45,858 nucleotides of DNA from Gammaproteobacteria bacterium (GTDB taxonomy: Bacteria > Pseudomonadota > Gammaproteobacteria > UBA9339), in assembly GCA_023480665.1 (NCBI GenBank), contig JAMCWR010000056.1:1-45858 (forward strand). The letters are read 5' to 3'. The translations under genes were made by a program, and so were the position numbers. This document shows positions 34,140 through 45,858 of this stretch, piece by piece. The stretch's first letter is position 1, and each line of letters opens with the position of its first letter. Under the pieces are notes generated by a model, which did not search any database, was not told where the DNA came from, and saw only the letters and a program-made list of their open reading frames with translations.

Positions 34140-34742
34140 CTAGTTACTTGCTGGTAAAAACGGTCGTGTTACGCTCAATTCTTTTGACACAGGGTAGCAG
34201 CCAATAATTATATAGGCATTTCTAGTGTCTAATTTTCCTGTAGCTTTTGGTTCCATTGGATCTGCTTTTGCTTGGAAAGTGTATTTATCAACAGCTGTTT
34301 TTGGCCAAAAACCATTTTTGTGATTTTCTGCGGTATCTAGAAATTGGTCGTGCATTAGCAAATGATACGAGCCATGAAGTTTTTGTGCTCCTGAGCCAAT
34401 TAAATATGCGTCTGAAGTTTCCATAAGAAAATATTGCGGTTTTGGCATGCGATCAGAAATGTAATTGCATTGTAAGTATAGATATTCATTTGCTGCAAGT
34501 TTGTCTAAATTGCAGAATTGGCAGAACGATCCTGCGCATACACTGTATGGTTTGGAGCTAGGGAGTACGCAGGCGCCATCGTTAGCTTCATTACTATTTA
34601 ATGTATTAATATCTATATTTATTGTGCCGCAATTGCCAGTATTGTCGCAGTATTTTGCTTTTGAAAAATTTGCTGTTGTTGCGTTAGCATTTGCAATAAA
34701 TGCAAACAACATAGTCATTATTATTAAATTAATTTTCTTCAT
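34140..34742 (-). CDS. Exported cysteine-containing protein of unknown function
   Basis: The 200-residue protein has a clear signal peptide (MKKINLIIMTMLFAFIANANA, cleavage near residue 21). The mature part has eight cysteines, an even number that suits disulfides in the periplasm or outside the cell. CQFCNL is a C-x-x-C pair but lacks a thioredoxin context. Shared elements with the preceding gene product are an early C-D-N...C pair, the Y-x-x-C region, LLMHDQF (there ILFHNDF), YTFQA (there YFQA) and a late CYP (there CFP). This suggests diverged paralogues. GGAG lies 6 bases before the ATG. It is the second gene of a two-gene unit (29-base gap). Confidence 0.6.
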   Translation of the reverse strand: MKKINLIIMTMLFAFIANANATTANFSKAKYCDNTGNCGTINIDINTLNSNEANDGACVLPSSKPYSVCAGSFCQFCNLDKLAANEYLYLQCNYISDRMPKPQYFLMETSDAYLIGSGAQKLHGSYHLLMHDQFLDTAENHKNGFWPKTAVDKYTFQAKADPMEPKATGKLDTRNAYIIIGCYPVSKELSVTRPFLPASN

Positions 34743-34771: not shown

Positions 34772-35329
34772 TTAACCGAACATCCCTTTGAGAGGTTGGC
34801 GATTTTCACCTTTTCCGGGAAAGCATTGCACGCTGCCTTTTGGTTCTGAAATAAAATCAATGCGGCTATCGTCGCAAGTCTTGCCGTATTTCGTATTATC
34901 CTCGACCGCCTGAAAATAAACTGTATTAAACTCACTTAATTGATGAAATGCATCTGCATAATTATTGTCGTCGGCAGTAAAATCATTATGAAATAAGATA
35001 TAGCCAGTCATGCCGCTAGCAAAATATGAAAAACCTTTCATTAACGAACAATGGTTTCGCATCATTACAAATTTTGCCCCATCCTGCGCTACGCAATACA
35101 TAGTGGCATATTGAGTTTTATCCGGATTACGCCTGTCTAGAACAGATAAGTTTTTAAGAGAGCAGGTTTGATTTTGGTTATCGCACTCAACCACCGGGTC
35201 GGCATTAGCTGCGAGGCTGCGTAGAGGCAAAAACGCTACAGAAGATAATAAAACTGCGCAAATTAAATTTAAAGCCGTGCGTAATTTTATACGCCGCGGC
35301 AAGGTGAAAAATATGCTTCTTATTTTCAT
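34772..35329 (-). CDS. Exported cysteine-containing protein of unknown function, probable paralogue of its neighbour
   Basis: The 185-residue protein has a long basic N-region followed by a hydrophobic core (LNLICAVLLSSVAFLPL) and likely cleavage near RSLAANA (about residue 42), so it should be exported by Sec. The mature region has six cysteines (ECDNQNQTC, MYCV, NHCS, KTCDD, QCFPG). The spacing of its conserved elements follows the 34140-34742 protein. A GAGGAAAG ribosome-binding site is well placed. It ends with a basic, glycine-containing tail (KGENRQPLKGMFG). I cannot assign a function; a secreted effector, adhesin or inhibitor are all open. Confidence 0.6.
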   Translation of the reverse strand: MKIRSIFFTLPRRIKLRTALNLICAVLLSSVAFLPLRSLAANADPVVECDNQNQTCSLKNLSVLDRRNPDKTQYATMYCVAQDGAKFVMMRNHCSLMKGFSYFASGMTGYILFHNDFTADDNNYADAFHQLSEFNTVYFQAVEDNTKYGKTCDDSRIDFISEPKGSVQCFPGKGENRQPLKGMFG

Positions 35330-35598
35330 ATTATACTTTCCTCGTTATGGGTTATTAAAATGCCCGGGTTACTGATGCACCATTATTTACGCTAGCAGTA
35401 AAAAGCGATATCCGTTTTTATTACGGATGTTTTTCCGGGGCGGGTTTACTATAAAATATAATAAAAGGTTTTGTTTAGTTCTAATTGCCCAAGCTTACCA
35501 TGTTTAGAAAGGCGATTATGGTTTAATTATAAAAATATTTATAATTTTGCGCAATATTAGCTGCATAAATCTGCACAAAATATAATAGAGGTATCGTT
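35330..35598. other. Intergenic region between divergent exported-protein genes and the biosynthetic cluster
   Basis: A hairpin (ATCCGT 35410-35415 with ACGGAT 35423-35428) is followed by GTTTTTCC. TATAAT occurs at 35457-35462 and at 35581-35586, but neither has a convincing -35; the second would overlap the ribosome-binding site of the prenyltransferase gene. The promoter of the cluster is presumably here. No small gene is seen. Confidence 0.35.
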
Positions 35599-36450
35599 AT
35601 GCGTGTTGAAGGCATTATTAAATACTATAATTTTAAGGAAATGTTTAATATAGGTAGTAGCGTACCTTTGAAAGTATTCGAAGATTTTTTACTTGGTAAT
35701 GTAAACTGGACTAATCTCGAATGTTCAAATAATTATAATAATGGAACCGTTTTTTCACAACGTTTTAATTTATGGTTTTACTCTACCAAAAACCGGCAGA
35801 ATATTAAAAAAAACATATCTGATATTTTGTCATTTTTCGATCAAATGGAATCTTCTTGCTCTATTAAGTTCGATTATAGTTTGCTGAATTATGTTTTAAG
35901 AAGGTTTGATTTTGATGAAATTTATAGCGTGACATGTGGTGTAGATTTTAGGCCATGTTTAGAAGAATCTAAGATGAAAATCTGGTTTATTACAAAAAAA
36001 CATACAAAAAAAATATTTGATATTATTATGATACATGGAGCGTTTGATGAAACAATGGAGCTTTGTAAAGCAGTTAAACCTATAAGCAATACTCTAAATC
36101 TTTTTGGTTTGGAATTATCTTTTTCTGGTACAACCCGTTTTAAAATTTATCCATATTTCTCGCAAAAAAAATTTGCAATTCTCAAAGATTTTTTTCATGC
36201 CCAAACCTTTTCTTTGATCAAAAAATGCAGATGGATATGGATAACTTTTGATAAGGAACTAAATAAAATTATTCATTTTGCGCCAAAGAATATTGATAAA
36301 TTTCTTAAGCTGGCAAGCATTAAGAAAATTTCTTTGATAAACCAAAAATATAAATGCTATGGGTACAAAATTTTTATTATTTCTTTTTTGGAGAAAGAAA
36401 TACAACGAAAAAACTTTAAAAAAATAAATTTATATTGTTTTGATTGTTAA
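35599..36450 (+). CDS. Peptide prenyltransferase, LynF/PagF/TruF (cyanobactin) family
   Basis: The 283-residue protein matches the cyanobactin ABBA-barrel prenyltransferases along its length as I recall PagF. Matches are PLKVFEDFLLG, SIKFDYSLLNYVL, the strand GVDFRPCLEESKMKIWF (PagF: GIDLRDNLAESSLKMHI), LFGLELSFSGTTRFKIY (PagF: LIGFDFYFNGKSEIEIY) and the closing KKINLYCF (family: N-I-R/N-L-Y-Y). Glu41 occupies the place of PagF Glu51, thought to engage the acceptor hydroxyl. Known members attach dimethylallyl or geranyl groups to Tyr, Ser/Thr, Trp, His or Arg of ribosomal peptides. Here no cyanobactin protease or heterocyclase is nearby; the gene precedes a leader-like small gene and an NRPS. 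AGAGG lies before the ATG. The substrate is unknown. Confidence 0.82.
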   Translation: MRVEGIIKYYNFKEMFNIGSSVPLKVFEDFLLGNVNWTNLECSNNYNNGTVFSQRFNLWFYSTKNRQNIKKNISDILSFFDQMESSCSIKFDYSLLNYVLRRFDFDEIYSVTCGVDFRPCLEESKMKIWFITKKHTKKIFDIIMIHGAFDETMELCKAVKPISNTLNLFGLELSFSGTTRFKIYPYFSQKKFAILKDFFHAQTFSLIKKCRWIWITFDKELNKIIHFAPKNIDKFLKLASIKKISLINQKYKCYGYKIFIISFLEKEIQRKNFKKINLYCFDC

Positions 36451-36485
36451 TTTAATAATGCATCTTAATTTAATGTGAGGTTGAT

Positions 36486-36674
36486 ATGGTTTCGATACGC
36501 AAAGATAATAAATCAAGCGAACTCAAGCGATTTCTTAATAAAATAAATCGAGATAGTAAATTTAGAAAGATGATCCAAAGTCGGATAAATGATTCTAAAG
36601 TTAATGCGTTAAGACAGATTTTAGAGGATTTTGGATTTAAGCTTACTAAAAATGAATTTAAAGAAATTCTTTAG
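36486..36674 (+). CDS. Nif11-leader-like 62-residue protein without a core peptide
   Basis: The sequence SSELKRFLNKINRD then KFRKMIQ and ILEDFGFKLTKNEFKEIL follows the Nif11-like leader pattern (L-x-x-F-L-x-K-x-x-x-D-x-x-[LF]-R-x-x-[LI], then A/L-x-x-x-G-[FY]-x-[LF]-[ST]-x-x-E/[FL]). In RiPP systems such leaders precede a Gly-Gly-type cleavage site and a core. Here the protein stops exactly where a leader would end, with no Gly-Gly, Cys, Trp, Tyr or His. It is basic, whereas such leaders are usually acidic. GTGAGG is a good ribosome-binding site, 35 bases after the prenyltransferase gene, so the two are coupled. Alternatives: a free-standing recognition factor, a decayed precursor, or an unrelated helical protein. 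Confidence 0.5.
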   Translation: MVSIRKDNKSSELKRFLNKINRDSKFRKMIQSRINDSKVNALRQILEDFGFKLTKNEFKEIL

Positions 36675-36676
36675 GG

Positions 36677-36699
36677 TTGCCCAATTTTTTAATTGGCAA
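36677..36699 (+). terminator. Hairpin just after the leader-like gene
   Basis: TTGCC-C-AATT (36677-36686) pairs with AATTGGCAA (36691-36699) through nine pairs with one bulged C and a TTTT loop, beginning 2 bases after the stop. No U-run follows, so it may be an attenuator or mRNA-stabilising stem that sets the ratio of upstream to downstream products. Confidence 0.35.
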
Positions 36700-36797
36700 T
36701 GAATTGATTTCTGATTATGTGGTTCGTAGCTGATATGATTTTGTGCTAATTGCTAGGAATATGGGTAAATCGCATAAGTAAAATAGCAGAGTGTTCT

Positions 36798-37502
36798 ATG
36801 ATAAAAAAAATAGGTGTATTTGGTGGGCTTGGGCCATTGGCATCAGCAAAATTCGTTGAGACAATTTACTTCTGTGGTTTACAAAATGTTGCAAATGAAC
36901 AAGAACTTGTTGAGGTTATTTTATACTCTAAGCCATCAATTCCGGATCGCACTGAATATTTATTGCAGGGAAAAACAGAAGTGTTATTTCAGGAACTTTC
37001 AAAAGGTATTGAAAAACTTATAAGCTGTGGTGCTGAAAAAATAATAGTTTGTTGTTTTACGATGCACTATTTAATACCGCAACTTAAGGAAAATATTAGA
37101 AGTAGAATAATTCAATTACCAAGCATCTTATTATTGGAAATTATAAAACAAAGAAAAACTGTGTTATTGCTTTGTACTAAAGGAGCAAAGAAACTAAAAA
37201 TATTTGAGAAAGATTTGCTATGGAATCATGCTAGCAAATATATTGTGAGAATAAATGATGATGATCAGGAGCTAGTGCATAATGCTATATATAAAATCAA
37301 AAAAAATGATCCAAACAAGGTTGTTTCCAATGAACTTGCTTCGCTTTTGAAAAAATATAAAGCGAATATTTTAGGCGCTGGATGCACTGAATTTCATTTG
37401 CTTAGTTCGAAACAATATTTTAATTCCATGGAGGATAATTTTCCTAGTTTTATTGATCCACTAATAACTATTGCAGAAAGCTTGGTATTGCCAAAAAGTT
37501 AA
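36798..37502 (+). CDS. Asp/Glu/hydantoin racemase-family enzyme (amino-acid racemase)
   Basis: The 234-residue protein starts KIGVFGGLGPLASAKFVETI, the opening of aspartate/glutamate racemases. It keeps both catalytic cysteines: Cys86 in CFTMH (family C-N-T-x-H) and Cys196 in GAGCTEFHLL (family G-C-T-E). These act as the two acid/base thiols in a PLP-free two-base mechanism. I chose ATG 36798 because the conserved strand begins there; the frame extends back to a TTG at 36750 that adds 16 atypical residues. It ends 18 bases before the NRPS gene, so it probably supplies a D-amino acid (Asp or Glu by family) to a later NRPS module. The Asn-to-Phe change in CFTMH may alter specificity. Confidence 0.75.
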   Translation: MIKKIGVFGGLGPLASAKFVETIYFCGLQNVANEQELVEVILYSKPSIPDRTEYLLQGKTEVLFQELSKGIEKLISCGAEKIIVCCFTMHYLIPQLKENIRSRIIQLPSILLLEIIKQRKTVLLLCTKGAKKLKIFEKDLLWNHASKYIVRINDDDQELVHNAIYKIKKNDPNKVVSNELASLLKKYKANILGAGCTEFHLLSSKQYFNSMEDNFPSFIDPLITIAESLVLPKS

Positions 37503-37520
37503 AACTCTTAAAGTAAAAAA

Positions 37521-40500
37521 ATGACTAAACAGATGATTGATCAAAATAAAAACACAATTTATCAGCTATTTTCTGATCGGGTAAAAAAGAGCGCTAGTAA
37601 TATTGCTGTGGTTTATGATGGCGAGGCTATTACATATGCCGAGCTTTTTGATCGTATAAATCGTTTAGCTCAGGAAATTCAGATTCTTGATGAAAAAAAA
37701 AGAATGCAAGGCCAGGATTTTTTTATAGGCTTATCATTGAGTCGTGGCATCGAAATGATAACAGGAATGTTAGCAATTATAGCTGTTGGAGGTACATATG
37801 TTCCGCTTGATCCATTATACCCAAAAGAGCGCTTAGCTTACATAGTTGATGACGCAAAAATAAGCATAGTTTTAACAGACAAAAAATTAATCCCTAAGTG
37901 GAAAACGATTAAGAATGATTTACATTATGTCTGCATAAATGGAAACAAACACTATCAAGGAGATGCGCAGCCAATATTTAATGATACAGCTAATGTTGAT
38001 AATTTAGCCTATGTAATTTATACATCCGGATCTACAGGAAGACCAAAAGGGGTGATGGTGAAGCAAAGGGGTGTGATTAATTTGGCTTGCGCACAACGCA
38101 AGATACTAGATCTAAACGAGAAAAGTCATGTTTTGCAATATTCATCAATTAATTTTGACGCTTCCGTTTGGGAAATATTTTCAACGTTGTTCTTTGGAGC
38201 TTCGCTTTATATTGTCCCGGAAAAAATAAGACCTGATTATAGAAAATTATGTACTTTTATAAATAAAAACAAGATCAGCATAGCGGTGTTACCGCCAGCT
38301 ATTTTGTCATTATTCCCTAACAACAATTTAAGGTCGTTGCAAACTCTTGTAGTAGCGGGTGATGTTTGTAATGAAGTAATCATGAAGAAGTGGGGCAAGC
38401 ATAGAAAATTAATTAATGCATACGGTCCTACAGAAGTTACTGTATGTGCAACTTACGCTATTTATGAAGGTGTATGCAAATATAACAACATTGGTTATCC
38501 TATTGCCAATGTTAGTCGCTATGTTCTTGGTCATAATTTGAAAAAAGTTAGCAAAGGATCCGTAGGCGAACTTTTTATTGGTGGCGTGGGTTTAGCTCGT
38601 GGGTATCTTAACCAGCCAGAATTAACCAAAGAAAAATTTATTGAGAACCCATTCTTATCTGATCAGGAGCGAGCTGATAAAAAAGCCCTTGGAGAAGATA
38701 CAAGAATTTACAAAACTGGGGATTTAGTAAGATTAGTATCTGATGAGAGTATTGAATTTATTGGCAGGATTGATAACCAAGTTAAGATTCGTGGATTTAG
38801 AATAGAGCCAGAAGAGGTAGGATATTTATTAAATAAACACCCAGGTATTAATAAATGTATAGTAATAGCAAAGGAGGTTAAAGATAAAAGTCAACAAGAT
38901 CAAATATCCCAAAAAAGACTTATTGCCTACTATGTAGTAAATAAAAACACTAATTTGAATAAGGTAACTTCGAATGTTCTTAGAAAATATTTAGAGCAGA
39001 ATTTACCTGAGTATATGATCCCATCTTATTTTATTTCTTTAAAACAAATGCCCTTGACGCTGAATGGCAAAATAGATAAAGAAAACCTACCTTTACCAGG
39101 GGGCGATAATTTAAACCTGGACAATAAATATGTGTCTCCTCATACCCACGAAGAAAAGATTTTGACGAAGATTTGGCGCAATGTTTTGAAGTTAGATATA
39201 GTTGGAATTAATGATAACTTTTTTAGTTTGGGTGGGGATTCGCTGAATGCGGCTACGGTAGCGATAAAGATTAATGATGTTTTTGGTTTGGGCGTTAGTT
39301 TGGAGACATTGTTTAAATATCCCACAATTTTTGAATTTGCAAAGTATATTAACAAATCATTTCAGTTGAAATCAAAACAACCATGTATAGGGCTTAAAAA
39401 GCAACCTAGAGGCAAATTTATACCGCTTTCATATTCGCAGGAACAAATATGGTTTCATCAGCAACTGCTAGGCGATAATTGTGTATATATTGAAAATTTT
39501 AGTATTAATTTTAATGAAATGATGAACATAAAATGCTTAGAAAAGGCCATAAATTATTTAGTGAGAAGACATGAAGCACTTAGGTTTAGATTGGTAAAGC
39601 ATAATGAGCAAATATTGCAGCGATTTGAAGATTATAAAAAGTTTAAGCTGCATGTCATAAATTTACCTAAAAATTCTAAAGGACTGGTTGCTGCGGAGAC
39701 AGTAGAATATATAACATCAGTTATTAAAAAACCTTTTGATTTGTTTCATGAGTCGCCGATTCGCTTTATCTTAGCAAAATTGACGAGTAACTTTTGCAAG
39801 CTATATGTTGTTGTTCATCATATGGCTTTAGACGGTATTTCTCTATATAAAATATTTTTACCAGAGCTGGAGAAAGCATATAGGGCATTTTTAGAAAATA
39901 AAACCCCTTGTTTCGATAAAGTAATATTTCAATATGGTGATTATGCCAATTGGCAAAGAAATCTTATTAGAAATACAGCGATTGTTACCGGGCAATTAAG
40001 TTACTGGAAAACACAGCTTGCAGATTTAGAAGGTTTAAATTTATTTGTTAGTCCAACAGATTCTAAGTCTATGCTGTGGTTTGGCGCAAGAGAGTGCTTG
40101 AAAATTTCTCCAGAACTTTCTTTACAGCTAAAAAATTTCAGTAAAGCAGAAAGTTGCACTCTTTTTATAGTACTCATGGCAGTATTTGTTATATTACTTT
40201 TTCGTTACTCTGGTCAGAATGATATAGCTTTTGGGACTGTATTTCATGGAAGAAATCAAGAACTATTGAGCAAGATATTCGGAAACTTTTTAAATACTAT
40301 AATTATTCGGTGTAGGTTCGTAAATTCAATTACTTTTTCTGAGTTATTGGTGTTGGTTAAGAAAGTATTATTAGAGGCACAAAAAAATCAGGATATACCA
40401 TATCAAATTGTTTCTAAGAATATTTCCGTTAAAAACGGCATGAATAACCAAATGTTTAATACCGCTTTTATTTTTGAGCCAGCATTAGAAGATGATAAAT

Positions 40501-43500
40501 CCAAATGGGAATTAAGTCAGTTAGAAATGCATAATGATACCACAAAATTTGATCTAACTTTTGAGTTGGACGAAAGATCATATGGCATCATAGGCAGAGT
40601 CGAATACAATAAAAATATTTTTAGTAAGTCTTCAATTCTGCGAATGATTGATCACTACCAAATATTATTGGAAAATATTGTAAAAAGCCCATTGACCCCA
40701 ATTTCATCCATTAATTTACTTACCAAAGAAGAAAAGCAGTTTTTAACAAAATTTAACCAAACCAATGCCTATTACCAAAAAGATAAAACTATTCATGAGC
40801 TTTTTGAAGAACAAGCCCGAAAAAACCCAAACCATATTGCTCTAATATTTGAAAACCAGGAATTAACTTATAAAGAATTAAACGAAAGAGCAAATCAATT
40901 AGCGCTTTATATTAGAGCGCACTATGAAAATGCAAAGCCGCAAAACCATAGAAAGCTTCGACAAAAATTTATTCCAGATACATTAATTGCTTTGTGTTTG
41001 AATCGCAGTTTTGACATGCTTGTTAGTATTCTTGGCGTCCTTAAAGCAGGAGGGGCTTATGTGCCAATTGACCCATCTTATCCAGAAGAAAGAATAAAGT
41101 TCATTTTACGAGATACAAATACAGAAATGGTTATAACCCAAGAACATTTTGGTAAAAAACTAGAAGCAATTACAAAAGCATATAAAGATAGAAATACTAA
41201 GATCATTTTCATAGATAATGATCAAACAAAGAAGAAACTTTTGCAGCTATCTGTGAGTGATCTTAAACCTATAAGCAAAGCCAAAGATCTTGCGTATGTT
41301 ATTTATACATCGGGAACAACAGGCAAGCCGAAAGGGTCGATGCTTAACCATTCAGGCATAGTAAATAGAATTCAATGGATGCAAGGCAGATATCCATTAA
41401 CACCTGTGGATAGAGTTTTACAAAAAACCCCTTATGTTTTTGATGTGTCGGTGTGGGAATTGTTGTGGGCAAATTGGTATGGGGCAACCATAGTGTTAGC
41501 TAAACCAGATGGGCACAAAGATAATCAATACTTGCATGAGTTGATTACAAAGCAAAAAATCACAGTTTTGCATTTTGTACCATCTATGTTTAATGCGTAT
41601 TTAGATTATATTGCTAGCAGTGAATTATTTAAGGCCCCATCGGTAAAACAATTATTTTGTAGTGGTGAAGCGTTACCATCATCTCAGGTATTAAAATTTG
41701 AACAATTAAAAAGTAATGGACAGCTGGCAGAAAAAACACGTCTTAGTAATCTTTACGGACCAACTGAAGCATCAATTGACGTAACTTATTATGACTGTGA
41801 TAAACAACAAAATTTAATACCAATAGGCAAACCTATTGCGAATATTCAAGTCTATGTATTAGACACAGACTTTAATCAAGTCCCAATTGACTTGATTGGT
41901 GAATTATATATAGGTGGCGTGGGTTTGGCTCGTGGTTATCTTAACCAAACAGAATTAACCCAACAAAAATTTATAGAAAATCCTTTCTTGTCTAGGCAAG
42001 AAAGGGCTCATAAAAAGTTAATTGGTGAAGATACTAGGATTTATAAAACTGGTGATTTGGGAAGGTGGCGCGCTGATGGCAATATTGAATTTATTGGCAG
42101 AATTGATAATCAAGTGAAGATTCGAGGTTTTAGAATAGAGTTGAGTGAAATTGAATCTTTGCTATGTAAGTATCCTGGTATAACACAATGTATAGTAATA
42201 GCTAGTGATATTGGTATACAGAAGCAATTAATTGCGTATTATGTGACTAAAAAAACCAAAAAAGACACAGAAATAACCGTTAATTTACTTAGGCATTATC
42301 TTGAGCGTGATTTGCCAGAGTATATGATTCCTTCTTATTTTGTTGCTCTAGAAAAAATACCATTAACTATAAATGGCAAGGTAGATAAAACAGCTTTGCC
42401 ATTACCAAATAGCAGTAATTTAAAATTGGCTAATGAATATGTAGCCCCAAGAACTACATCGGAGAAAATTTTGGCCAAGATTTGGCGTGATGTGTTGAAA
42501 CTGGATCGGGTTGGTATTTACGATAATTTTTTTAACTTAGGTGGCGATTCAATTATGAGCATTCAGGTTGTTTCTCGTGCTAGAGAAGCTGGTCTTTATT
42601 TAGCACCAAAGCAACTGCTTGTTAATACTACGATTGCTGAATTAGCAAAAGAAAGCTTGGAAAATAAAAGTGGGCTTGATGATATTGTAGCAGAACAAGG
42701 GTTAGCGTCCGGAGAGTTTAATTTTACCCCAATTCAACAGTGGTTTTTTGAGAAAAACTTTATCAATCCCAATTATTTTAATCAGGCATTTCTTTTTAAG
42801 TGCAAATTACAAATCGATAAAAATATTCTTATTAAAGTATTTACTAAGTTGATGGAACATCATGATGTTTTACGATTGCGGTTTTCTAATTTTAAGCAGA
42901 AGTATGTAAATAGTAAAACAACTGCAACTCCATTAATCAAAGAAATTGATTTATCTAAAGTCAAAGACCAGGCGAGTTTTATAGAAAAAAGCAATGCTAA
43001 GCTTCAGGCTGGTTTAGATATAGAGCATGGTCCAGTTATGATTTTAGGTTTGTATTATAACCATGTTGATGGCAGGCAAAGATTATTTATTGCAATTCAC
43101 CATTTAATTATTGATTGGGTATCTTGGAAAATATTCCTTGAAGACATAGAGAGCGCTTACCAACAACTTTTATCAAATCAAAAAATATCTTTGCCGGCAA
43201 AAACCAGCTCCTATAAAACCTGGTCTGAAGTTTTGCAAAGCTATGCTAAGAGTGAATTATTGCGCTCAGAATTGGATTATTGGTTATCAATAGAAAAAGA
43301 AGTAAGTAATTTGCCAGTAGATCGGGTATCTGAAACAACACAGGTTAAGTGCGCGGGGCTTTATACTATTCGTTTAACTCAAACAGAGACGAAGCAATTA
43401 TTAACTGAGGTTCCTAAGGCTTATCAAACACACATTAACGATATTCTTCTTTCGGCACTTGCTTTAGCTGTTTTTGCGTGGACTGGGCAAAAGAACCTTT

Positions 43501-44153
43501 TTTTAAATTTGGAAGGACATGGTCGTGAAGGTTCAATTCTTAATGTTGATGTTTATAGAACTATTGGTTGGTTTACCTCTATTTATCCAGTTCATTTATA
43601 TTTACCGGATGAAGTAGACAACATGGGAAATTATCTAGCCATGACAATAAAAGCGATAAAGGAGCAATTACGCAAGATACCAAATAAAGGAATTGGATAT
43701 GGTGTACTCAAATACCTAGCTAATGATAATTTATCTAAGCAGTTTAAGAAAAATGATCGAGCCAGTATTAGCTTTAATTATTTAGGAGGAATGGACGATG
43801 ATTCATTAACAATATTACAAAAAACACCAGAATCAGTGGGTAGCTATGTTTCATTAGACAATCAAATGACTAGTTTGATTGATGCTAATGCTATGGTCAT
43901 GAATGATCATTTATATGTAAATTTTTGCTTTAGTAGTCGACATTATTATCCAGCTACCATAAAAAACTTTGGCAATGGGTTTAAAAAATACTTACGACTT
44001 TTAATTAATCATTGTACCCAACCAGACGCAGTAGGATATACACCTTCAGATTTTAAAGCAATTCAACTAAATCAAAAGGAGATTGATAATATTTTAGATT
44101 CTGATTCCAAAAACCTTGAAACTTTAGCTGGTAATATTATTGAGGAATTTTAA
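37521..44153 (+). CDS. Non-ribosomal peptide synthetase, A-T-C-A-T-E, predicted aromatic (Phe-like) then D-Ser
   Basis: The 2210-residue protein begins directly with an adenylation domain (about residues 13-525; YVIYTSGSTGRPKG), so it is an initiating module. T1 is DNFFSLGGDSLNA with pantetheine Ser574. The C domain (about 630-1070) has HHMALDG at 766-772. A2 (about 1090-1610) has YTSGTTGKPKG. T2 is DNFFNLGGDSIMS with Ser1677. The last domain (about 1730-2170) is epimerisation type: HHLIIDWVSW (1860-1869), GHGRE, RTIGWFTSIYPV, NKGIGYGVL, FNYLGG. Specificity codes read by alignment to GrsA are D-A-W-V-V-A-A-V-C-K for A1, close to Phe codes, and D-V-W-H-F-S-L-I-D-K for A2, close to the Ser code of EntF. 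The short tail after E may dock to the next protein. Confidence 0.93.
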   Translation: MTKQMIDQNKNTIYQLFSDRVKKSASNIAVVYDGEAITYAELFDRINRLAQEIQILDEKKRMQGQDFFIGLSLSRGIEMITGMLAIIAVGGTYVPLDPLYPKERLAYIVDDAKISIVLTDKKLIPKWKTIKNDLHYVCINGNKHYQGDAQPIFNDTANVDNLAYVIYTSGSTGRPKGVMVKQRGVINLACAQRKILDLNEKSHVLQYSSINFDASVWEIFSTLFFGASLYIVPEKIRPDYRKLCTFINKNKISIAVLPPAILSLFPNNNLRSLQTLVVAGDVCNEVIMKKWGKHRKLINAYGPTEVTVCATYAIYEGVCKYNNIGYPIANVSRYVLGHNLKKVSKGSVGELFIGGVGLARGYLNQPELTKEKFIENPFLSDQERADKKALGEDTRIYKTGDLVRLVSDESIEFIGRIDNQVKIRGFRIEPEEVGYLLNKHPGINKCIVIAKEVKDKSQQDQISQKRLIAYYVVNKNTNLNKVTSNVLRKYLEQNLPEYMIPSYFISLKQMPLTLNGKIDKENLPLPGGDNLNLDNKYVSPHTHEEKILTKIWRNVLKLDIVGINDNFFSLGGDSLNAATVAIKINDVFGLGVSLETLFKYPTIFEFAKYINKSFQLKSKQPCIGLKKQPRGKFIPLSYSQEQIWFHQQLLGDNCVYIENFSINFNEMMNIKCLEKAINYLVRRHEALRFRLVKHNEQILQRFEDYKKFKLHVINLPKNSKGLVAAETVEYITSVIKKPFDLFHESPIRFILAKLTSNFCKLYVVVHHMALDGISLYKIFLPELEKAYRAFLENKTPCFDKVIFQYGDYANWQRNLIRNTAIVTGQLSYWKTQLADLEGLNLFVSPTDSKSMLWFGARECLKISPELSLQLKNFSKAESCTLFIVLMAVFVILLFRYSGQNDIAFGTVFHGRNQELLSKIFGNFLNTIIIRCRFVNSITFSELLVLVKKVLLEAQKNQDIPYQIVSKNISVKNGMNNQMFNTAFIFEPALEDDKSKWELSQLEMHNDTTKFDLTFELDERSYGIIGRVEYNKNIFSKSSILRMIDHYQILLENIVKSPLTPISSINLLTKEEKQFLTKFNQTNAYYQKDKTIHELFEEQARKNPNHIALIFENQELTYKELNERANQLALYIRAHYENAKPQNHRKLRQKFIPDTLIALCLNRSFDMLVSILGVLKAGGAYVPIDPSYPEERIKFILRDTNTEMVITQEHFGKKLEAITKAYKDRNTKIIFIDNDQTKKKLLQLSVSDLKPISKAKDLAYVIYTSGTTGKPKGSMLNHSGIVNRIQWMQGRYPLTPVDRVLQKTPYVFDVSVWELLWANWYGATIVLAKPDGHKDNQYLHELITKQKITVLHFVPSMFNAYLDYIASSELFKAPSVKQLFCSGEALPSSQVLKFEQLKSNGQLAEKTRLSNLYGPTEASIDVTYYDCDKQQNLIPIGKPIANIQVYVLDTDFNQVPIDLIGELYIGGVGLARGYLNQTELTQQKFIENPFLSRQERAHKKLIGEDTRIYKTGDLGRWRADGNIEFIGRIDNQVKIRGFRIELSEIESLLCKYPGITQCIVIASDIGIQKQLIAYYVTKKTKKDTEITVNLLRHYLERDLPEYMIPSYFVALEKIPLTINGKVDKTALPLPNSSNLKLANEYVAPRTTSEKILAKIWRDVLKLDRVGIYDNFFNLGGDSIMSIQVVSRAREAGLYLAPKQLLVNTTIAELAKESLENKSGLDDIVAEQGLASGEFNFTPIQQWFFEKNFINPNYFNQAFLFKCKLQIDKNILIKVFTKLMEHHDVLRLRFSNFKQKYVNSKTTATPLIKEIDLSKVKDQASFIEKSNAKLQAGLDIEHGPVMILGLYYNHVDGRQRLFIAIHHLIIDWVSWKIFLEDIESAYQQLLSNQKISLPAKTSSYKTWSEVLQSYAKSELLRSELDYWLSIEKEVSNLPVDRVSETTQVKCAGLYTIRLTQTETKQLLTEVPKAYQTHINDILLSALALAVFAWTGQKNLFLNLEGHGREGSILNVDVYRTIGWFTSIYPVHLYLPDEVDNMGNYLAMTIKAIKEQLRKIPNKGIGYGVLKYLANDNLSKQFKKNDRASISFNYLGGMDDDSLTILQKTPESVGSYVSLDNQMTSLIDANAMVMNDHLYVNFCFSSRHYYPATIKNFGNGFKKYLRLLINHCTQPDAVGYTPSDFKAIQLNQKEIDNILDSDSKNLETLAGNIIEEF

Positions 44154-45858
44154 ATGAATAAAATAACCGGCAATAAAATATCTAATTTAATTTATGCTCT
44201 TCAAGCTAAGGGCATCAAATTTGATGTAAGCGTTGACAAATTAAGATGTATTCTTCCACATGGTATTACATTATCTGACATTGAAAAAAATACGTTAAAA
44301 CACAACAAGAAGAATATTATACAGTTTTTACGTCATTCTACTTTTAAGAAAACAATAGAAACAATTTATGGTTTGAGTCCACTACAGGAAGGACTGCTAT
44401 TTCATGCTCTCTATGCCCCGGAAAGCGATCAATATCGTACCCAAATTATTTTTGAATGCGCAAGTGTAAATTCTAATATTTTAAAATTAGCTTGGATTGA
44501 GCTAGTTAAAAGACATGCAATTTTAAGAACCAAATTCCTTTGGCAAGGATTAGAAAAACCAGTGCAAATAGTACAAAAAGAAGTAGATTTGCCCTGGTAT
44601 GAGGAGGATTGGTCTAATCTTAATAGAGAAGAACAGGAGCAAAACCTGCTTGAATATTTTAAACATGATTTAGATCAATCATTTGATTTTTCTAAACCGT
44701 GTTTAATGCGCATGCATTTAATTAAGCTAAATTCTAACAAAAACGCAAGGTATGTTTTTGTTTGGACATACCACCATATTTTGTTGGATGGTTGGTGTTT
44801 GCCCATTATTTTTGCAGAGTTGGATGAGCTCTATCTAAGTATTATTAATGGTAAAAAATTATCATTGCCAGCAGTACCCGCTTATGAAAAGTACATAGAA
44901 TGGTTATCTGGACAAAGTAAAGACGAAGCCAAAGTCTTCTGGCAAGGGCAATTGGCGGGTATAGATAGCCCTACCGATCTTGGTGTAAACAAAAATAAGC
45001 TAGAGATACACAAACCTATAGTTGATCTTAAAGAATATCATGAATGTTTATCCAATGATTTCTCAAATGAATGTCGTTTTTTTGCTAAAAAGAATTCTGT
45101 TACCTTAGGCGCGTTAGTGGGGCTTGCTTGGTCTATAGTGCTTACAAAATATAGCAACCAAGAGGATATTGTTTTTGGGGCAACTGTATCAGGTAGGTTT
45201 GGTGATATACCTCAGATAGAAAAAATGGTCGGTCTTTTTATAAATACCTTGCCTCTTCGGGTAAAAATTAGTAAAGATAAAACCGTTAGAGATGAATTGC
45301 TTGATCTTCATAAAAAAATTCAGTTGATTAACCAATATAGTTATTTAAGTTTAAATGAAGTTCAAACCCAGAGCGCTATTCCCAAAAGCATACCTATTTT
45401 CTATAGTTTGTTTGTATTTGAAAATTATCCATTAGATGAGGAGCTGGCTTGTCTATTTGGATCAAATACAGGCAAAGAAAAAATAAAACTGATGTTTGAA
45501 AATATCAAATTTTATGAAAAAACCAACTATCCACTAACTCTTGTGATTTTACCGGGAACCAAACTATTTATTAAAGCAATTTATGATGCGGAATCATTTT
45601 CCAGTGAAGTCATAAAATCTTTAGTAAGGCATGTTCACAATGCATTAATTTGGTTGATAAGAAACGAAGATCAACTTTTAGCAAAAGCCAATATTTTTAC
45701 TACCAAGGAACTTAATCACCTAATTGATCATTATAACAAACCACAAAAACACTACCCAAATGACAAAACGATACAACAATTGTTTGAAGAGCAGGTTAGA
45801 AAAACTCCAAATAATATAGCGCTCGTATATGAAGGTAAAGAGTTAACCTATAAGGAAT
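44154..45858 (+). CDS. Non-ribosomal peptide synthetase, TubC-type docking domain, C domain and start of A domain (cut by window edge)
   Basis: The ATG directly follows the previous stop, with GAGGAA inside the end of the preceding gene as ribosome-binding site. Residues about 8-60 (NLIYALQAKGIKFDV, then DKLRCILPHG and NIIQFLR) match the TubC N-terminal docking domain pattern. A condensation domain follows (about 67-500): LSPLQEGLLFHAL, the active-site HHILLDG at 207-213, and FGATVSGRFGDIP. The S-P-L-Q-E-G-x-L-F-H motif is typical of C domains that accept a D-residue from upstream, which fits the preceding E domain. An A domain opens near residue 540 (FEEQVRKTPNNIALVYEG) and is cut at the edge. 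At least 568 codons are visible. Confidence 0.9.
   Translation, partial: MNKITGNKISNLIYALQAKGIKFDVSVDKLRCILPHGITLSDIEKNTLKHNKKNIIQFLRHSTFKKTIETIYGLSPLQEGLLFHALYAPESDQYRTQIIFECASVNSNILKLAWIELVKRHAILRTKFLWQGLEKPVQIVQKEVDLPWYEEDWSNLNREEQEQNLLEYFKHDLDQSFDFSKPCLMRMHLIKLNSNKNARYVFVWTYHHILLDGWCLPIIFAELDELYLSIINGKKLSLPAVPAYEKYIEWLSGQSKDEAKVFWQGQLAGIDSPTDLGVNKNKLEIHKPIVDLKEYHECLSNDFSNECRFFAKKNSVTLGALVGLAWSIVLTKYSNQEDIVFGATVSGRFGDIPQIEKMVGLFINTLPLRVKISKDKTVRDELLDLHKKIQLINQYSYLSLNEVQTQSAIPKSIPIFYSLFVFENYPLDEELACLFGSNTGKEKIKLMFENIKFYEKTNYPLTLVILPGTKLFIKAIYDAESFSSEVIKSLVRHVHNALIWLIRNEDQLLAKANIFTTKELNHLIDHYNKPQKHYPNDKTIQQLFEEQVRKTPNNIALVYEGKELTYKE

Follow-up and report, generated by a model that had tools for sequence, protein, structure and literature searches.

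A cyanobactin-type prenyltransferase gene heads a truncated non-ribosomal peptide synthetase cluster in a gammaproteobacterial draft genome

In a draft genome of a Gammaproteobacteria bacterium (lineage UBA9339; assembly GCA_023480665.1), a gene for a prenyltransferase of the F family, known from cyanobactin biosynthesis, heads a cluster that runs on into genes for a non-ribosomal peptide synthetase (NRPS). We tentatively propose, from the sequence of the locus, that this enzyme prenylates the peptide predicted from the adjoining assembly line. The window analysed here comprises 45,858 nucleotides and is an entire contig (C32; JAMCWR010000056.1) of the 1.9-Mb genome, which is split into 75 contigs.

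Organization of the cluster

Five plus-strand genes follow one another from position 35599 to the contig end, encoding the prenyltransferase (35599-36450; 283 amino acids, aa), a Nif11-like leader protein (36486-36674; 62 aa), an amino-acid racemase (36798-37502), NRPS1 (37521-44153; 2210 aa) and NRPS2 (44154-45858; open at its 3' end). Together they form a co-directional cluster with the domain order A-T-C-A-T-E in NRPS1, followed by docking domain, C and A in NRPS2, where A, T, C and E stand for adenylation, thiolation, condensation and epimerization. The intergenic gaps measure 35, 123, 18 and 0 bases, the second of these requiring that the racemase start at ATG 36798, while the listing of open reading frames (ORFs) gives an earlier TTG (36750). 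A first-pass annotation, made from the letters of this DNA and a list of its ORFs, had already given these coordinates, this gene order and these gaps, and the ORFs bear them out. Since the window is the whole contig and ends at 45858, the truncation of NRPS2 belongs to the contig.

The gene spacing fits a single transcript. Between 35300 and 37600, no terminator-like sites were found on the plus strand, promoter-like matches stayed at chance level (14 found versus 14.3 expected) and the RNA fold of the 123-base gap was not unusual. Trained on ten genes of the window, NRPS1 included, a codon-usage score ranked the annotated frame best of six in all four genes tested, among them the 62-aa gene.

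The 283-residue protein matches the Pfam family DUF5838 (PF19156) with 104.1 bits (E-value 1.2e-29), far above the gathering cut-off of 28.8. It is predicted to fold into an ABBA barrel whose nearest structures are F-family enzymes, it keeps the family-wide residues and its reading frame is open. By sequence family and predicted fold, it is thus an F-family (LynF/PagF/KgpF-type) peptide prenyltransferase, as the first-pass annotation had called it, and it has both PF19156 and the fold in common with the cyanobactin enzymes LynF, PagF, KgpF, LimF, PatF and DciF.

The 62-aa protein stays just below the cut-offs of TIGR03798 (1.4e-6; 28.4 bits, cut-off 32.3) and of Pfam Nif11 (0.0019; 18.9 bits, cut-off 23.8), a weak failure because the Nif11-like precursor of a related Gemmatimonadetes locus described below misses both cut-offs as well. 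It terminates where the Nif11 domain ends, with neither GG site nor core, and therefore cannot serve as a normal precursor substrate. Its AlphaFold2 model shows four helices at a pLDDT of only 66.6, and the gene is the sole match among 11 genomes of the order. The racemase matches Asp_Glu_race (2.5e-15), passes TIGR00035 (100.2 bits, cut-off 93.1), does not reach the cut-off of the cysteate racemase model CuyB (110.1 bits, cut-off 190) and carries two Cys motifs, VCCFTMH and AGCTE; its product is predicted to be an amino-acid racemase of the Asp/Glu type.

Domain searches placed two A domains (37572-38609 and 40803-41942), a C domain (39417-40745) and a C-like domain (42714-44063) on NRPS1, the T motifs being located by sequence. 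The motif of the last C-like domain, HHLIIDWVSW, is one we take to be the E-domain form. NRPS2 starts with a TubC_N docking domain (Pfam, 1.3e-6), which precedes a C domain (44358-45722; Condensation, 3.6e-87; motif HHILLDGW) and the beginning of an A domain. C, A and T domains are hence all present, and the Nif11-leader-like, racemase and NRPS calls of the first-pass annotation stand. As read by motif, the code of A1 is DAWVVAAVCK, which presumably resembles an aromatic code, and that of A2 is DVWHFSLIDK, presumably resembling a serine code, both judged against tables of specificity codes. The top single-domain match of A1 in the PDB is GrsA (368.6 bits), which activates phenylalanine, and the first residue may therefore be aromatic.

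A proposed route to a prenylated peptide

In the pathway that we consider most economical, NRPS1 would start with an aromatic residue bearing a free amine (A1), and A2 would add a serine that the E domain converts to D-Ser. NRPS2 would dock on NRPS1 and extend the chain, with the racemase providing a free D-amino acid for a later module. The prenyltransferase would act leader-free on the released peptide, released peptides also being the substrates of its cyanobactin relatives, and would most likely modify the first, aromatic residue or the amine of that residue, while the Nif11-like protein would be a relic or auxiliary of an ancestral cassette for ribosomally synthesized and post-translationally modified peptides (RiPPs), consisting of prenyltransferase and Nif11 precursor, which the NRPS cluster captured. 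The tight co-directional spacing as well as family and fold of the enzyme support this proposal. So does the lack of a cyanobactin protease, noted in the first pass for the locus: no protease of the PatA/PatG type was found in the draft genome, whose only S8 peptidase (on contig C43) scores 54.1 bits against the PatA/PatG model TIGR03895 (cut-off 421.05). Besides, the only YcaO gene of the genome is on a different contig, cyanobactin enzymes of this fold tolerate varied substrates and need no leader (PMC12715784), and the Gemmatimonadetes locus shows a pairing of prenyltransferase and Nif11 in a RiPP-like setting. That the enzyme acts on an NRPS product is nonetheless something we infer. If it does, the tolerant prenyltransferases employed as tools on ribosomal peptides would be matched in nature by an enzyme suited to non-ribosomal peptides, which might become a lipidation tool for that class, and parts of RiPP and NRPS pathways would be mixing in a 1.9-Mb genome.

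Relatives and known systems

The prenyltransferase family was met in one of 11 genomes of the order, one of 369 in a class sample and one of 398 in a phylum sample (the samples overlap), always in the genome of the window. Protein searches yielded one close relative, P0002 (49% identity), on a contig of 1614 bases, and a profile search with nine sequences recovered nine proteins in all, including the window enzyme. A pattern scan led to eight related loci, namely six cyanobacterial ones, L025 (labelled Nanoarchaeota) and L026 (Gemmatimonadetes). Because identity is about 20-30%, their enzymes are homologues rather than clear orthologues of the window enzyme. In an NCBIfam check of ten large ORFs chosen from the six cyanobacterial loci, all ten were PatA/PatG-type proteases above cut-off, with at least one in each locus; thus, the cyanobactin F enzymes with examined context adjoin such proteases, whereas the window enzyme adjoins an NRPS and has none beside it.

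L026 (54-12439) comprises an F-family enzyme, a Nif11-like precursor (VAGG site, 40-residue tail), HlyD-like and ABC-transporter genes and two FAD/GMC oxidoreductase genes, and we regard it as a candidate prenylated RiPP cluster. Like the window, it has an F-family enzyme and a Nif11-like gene close together; it differs in its tailed precursor, its transporter and oxidoreductase genes and in having no NRPS in 12.4 kb. L025 (1-1906), on a short contig of the metagenome-assembled genome labelled Nanoarchaeota, comprises an F-family prenyltransferase gene facing a radical SAM gene.

Cyanobactin enzymes of the ABBA fold are described as leader-free, acting on released peptides and substrate-tolerant (PMC12715784), and a 2026 review has cyanobactin prenyltransferases modify peptide residues (PMC13290415). 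Free L-Tyr and linear peptides are among the substrates listed for PagF (PMC7253389), and AutF, another member of the F family, N-prenylates arginine within peptides (PMC9609003). MppC, a lanthipeptide prenyltransferase that Wakeel, McShan and Agarwal studied and assign to the family of the cyanobactin enzymes, requires both parts of its Nif11-like leader, is not rescued by the leader in trans, docks the leader mainly through Phe340 and does not accept free L-Trp (PMC12715784). It resembles the window enzyme in fold class (as that paper states it) and in having a Nif11-like partner, yet MppC comes with a full precursor with core and a LanM, and the window enzyme with a core-less Nif11-like protein and an NRPS neighbour. 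Judged by length, the Phe340 site would have no obvious counterpart in the window enzyme, which is only 283 aa long.

Prenylation inside NRPS pathways is already known. CymD, TleC and MpnD are indole prenyltransferases of NRPS pathways that act with NRPS products or building blocks; they are NRPS-linked as proposed here, while the ABBA fold relates them only distantly. In suomilide/aeruginosin clusters, Aer3/BslB N-prenylates agmatine within the NRPS pathway (PMC13122637). Aer3/BslB, too, is a prenyltransferase serving an NRPS pathway, a likeness of described role; it differs in its agmatine substrate and cyanobacterial origin, and the passages covered mention neither a Nif11 gene nor a racemase (PMC13122637). 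The name bslB is absent from the main text of an earlier account of the Nostoc KVJ20 cluster (PMC10157211), and the word prenyl does not occur in the 2021 paper on suomilide (PMC8609519). A study of Planktothrix was unable to assign a +68 Da shift on agmatine to a cluster enzyme (PMC10744761). The first-pass statement that no described system with this combination is known must be narrowed, since Aer3/BslB acts within an NRPS pathway (PMC13122637); it stands to the extent that our literature search returned no account of an NRPS cluster with an F-family enzyme. The present cluster is a single, truncated instance.

Alternative explanations

Several observations weigh against a prenyltransferase that serves the NRPS peptide. 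None of the eight related loci shows NRPS genes over the DNA covered (tblastn of NRPS1, E 1e-3; just 3.7 kb for L025 and 12.4 kb for L026), and the 11, 369 and 398 genomes searched yielded no further example of the cluster. In every known context, the family serves ribosomal peptides, once beside a Nif11-like precursor, and this counts against our proposal as far as it goes. The first-pass annotation had itself held that orthologues never neighbouring NRPS genes would speak against an enzyme acting on the NRPS product; the lack of NRPS genes points that way, but the loci concerned hold homologues, and the closer P0002 sits on its very short contig. The window enzyme scores below the cut-off of the NCBI subfamily model TIGR04445 (105.9 bits, cut-off 140), which L026 (155.5 bits) and L025 (142.5 bits) pass and P0002 (94.1 bits) fails. 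If A1 loads plain phenylalanine, the residue would offer no side-chain nucleophile. The putative serine at A2 is read from the code: the best matches in a structure search are not known as serine-activating enzymes and add no support for it, with EntF (286.3 bits) below several others. Finally, the contig ends before the cluster does.

What else might the enzyme do? Prenyltransferase and Nif11-like gene could be the remains of a RiPP pathway, or an independent pair acting on another peptide, with the NRPS as a chance neighbour. The known contexts of the family, with PatA/PatG in six of six cyanobacterial loci, a tailed Nif11-like precursor in L026 and no NRPS genes over the DNA covered, speak for this view, but neither a core-bearing precursor nor a protease or RiPP-type exporter was seen beside the enzyme, where the 62-aa gene alone looks precursor-like (short precursor genes were not searched genome-wide). 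The open frame, the coding score and the kept family-wide residues argue against decay, and the next gene in order is the racemase, 18 bases ahead of NRPS1; we therefore deem a remnant or separate pair rather unlikely. Prenylation might also come first, such that the enzyme modifies a free amino acid which an A domain later loads. CymD, which prenylates tryptophan for cyclomarin before loading, would be the model. We judge this order unlikely, as the A1 code resembles that of a usual aromatic pocket, not one enlarged for a prenyl group, and as MppC refuses free L-Trp (PMC12715784).

A more unusual possibility is that the core-less Nif11-like protein works as a free docking subunit, binding the prenyltransferase in the manner of a leader and recruiting it to an NRPS peptide, carrier-bound or released, which would amount to leader-guided tailoring with no ribosomal substrate. 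The dependence of MppC, of the same fold class, on both parts of its Nif11-like leader is in line with such an adaptor (PMC12715784), as is a Nif11 domain kept while the core is gone, in a gene 35 bases behind that of the enzyme. However, with MppC the leader in trans is inactive (PMC12715784), and the position of its docking residue Phe340 lies beyond the length of the window enzyme, so that we consider an adaptor improbable. The core-less gene nevertheless lets one ask directly whether a leader domain that is not attached to the substrate could still direct tailoring. Most improbable of all would be that the neighbourhood is an assembly or binning artefact. The draft genome, estimated to be 98.63% complete, has its 75 contigs, a contamination estimate of 7.83% and no 16S match, but a single contig carries all five genes at short distances, and in tetranucleotide profile the cluster resembles three further regions of its contig and five segments from other contigs (correlations of 0.95-0.97; no outside genome served as control).

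Other features of the genome

Further NRPS or NRPS-polyketide synthase (PKS) genes lie on contigs C43, C45, C46, C51 and C74. The one on C46 (L017:7898-13438) is a 5'-open T-C-A-T-TE gene followed by a gene for an MFS exporter; it could be the 3' end of the window cluster or of that on C74, toward which its similarity leans. On C51 (L015:2684-10360), a frame of 2,559 aa with formyltransferase, A, T, KS, AT and terminal reductase-type domains constitutes a compact NRPS-PKS hybrid. NRPS1 has matches in nine of the 11 genomes of the order, and in seven of these (the window's own included) the match falls in an open frame longer than 1,000 aa; in genome G003, the match is limited to a single frame of ligase size. 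G+C content is 32.2% in the cluster (35500-45858) versus 35.6% in the first 35 kb of the contig, and the NRPS genes on C45, C46 and C74 are likewise low (33.6-34.3%).

The single YcaO gene of the genome is located on C18, not on the prenyltransferase contig, and scores 238 bits against the model for the YcaO of McrA-glycine thioamidation (cut-off 365). Its cassette (L027, around 103158-104132) appears thioamidation-like, a short ORF and MoeB/ThiF-like and MoaD/SAMP-like genes preceding YcaO and a TfuA-related gene following it. Directly left of the window cluster, two adjacent minus-strand genes (34140-34742 and 34772-35329) encode short proteins whose N termini are signal-like and which resemble each other on visual inspection.
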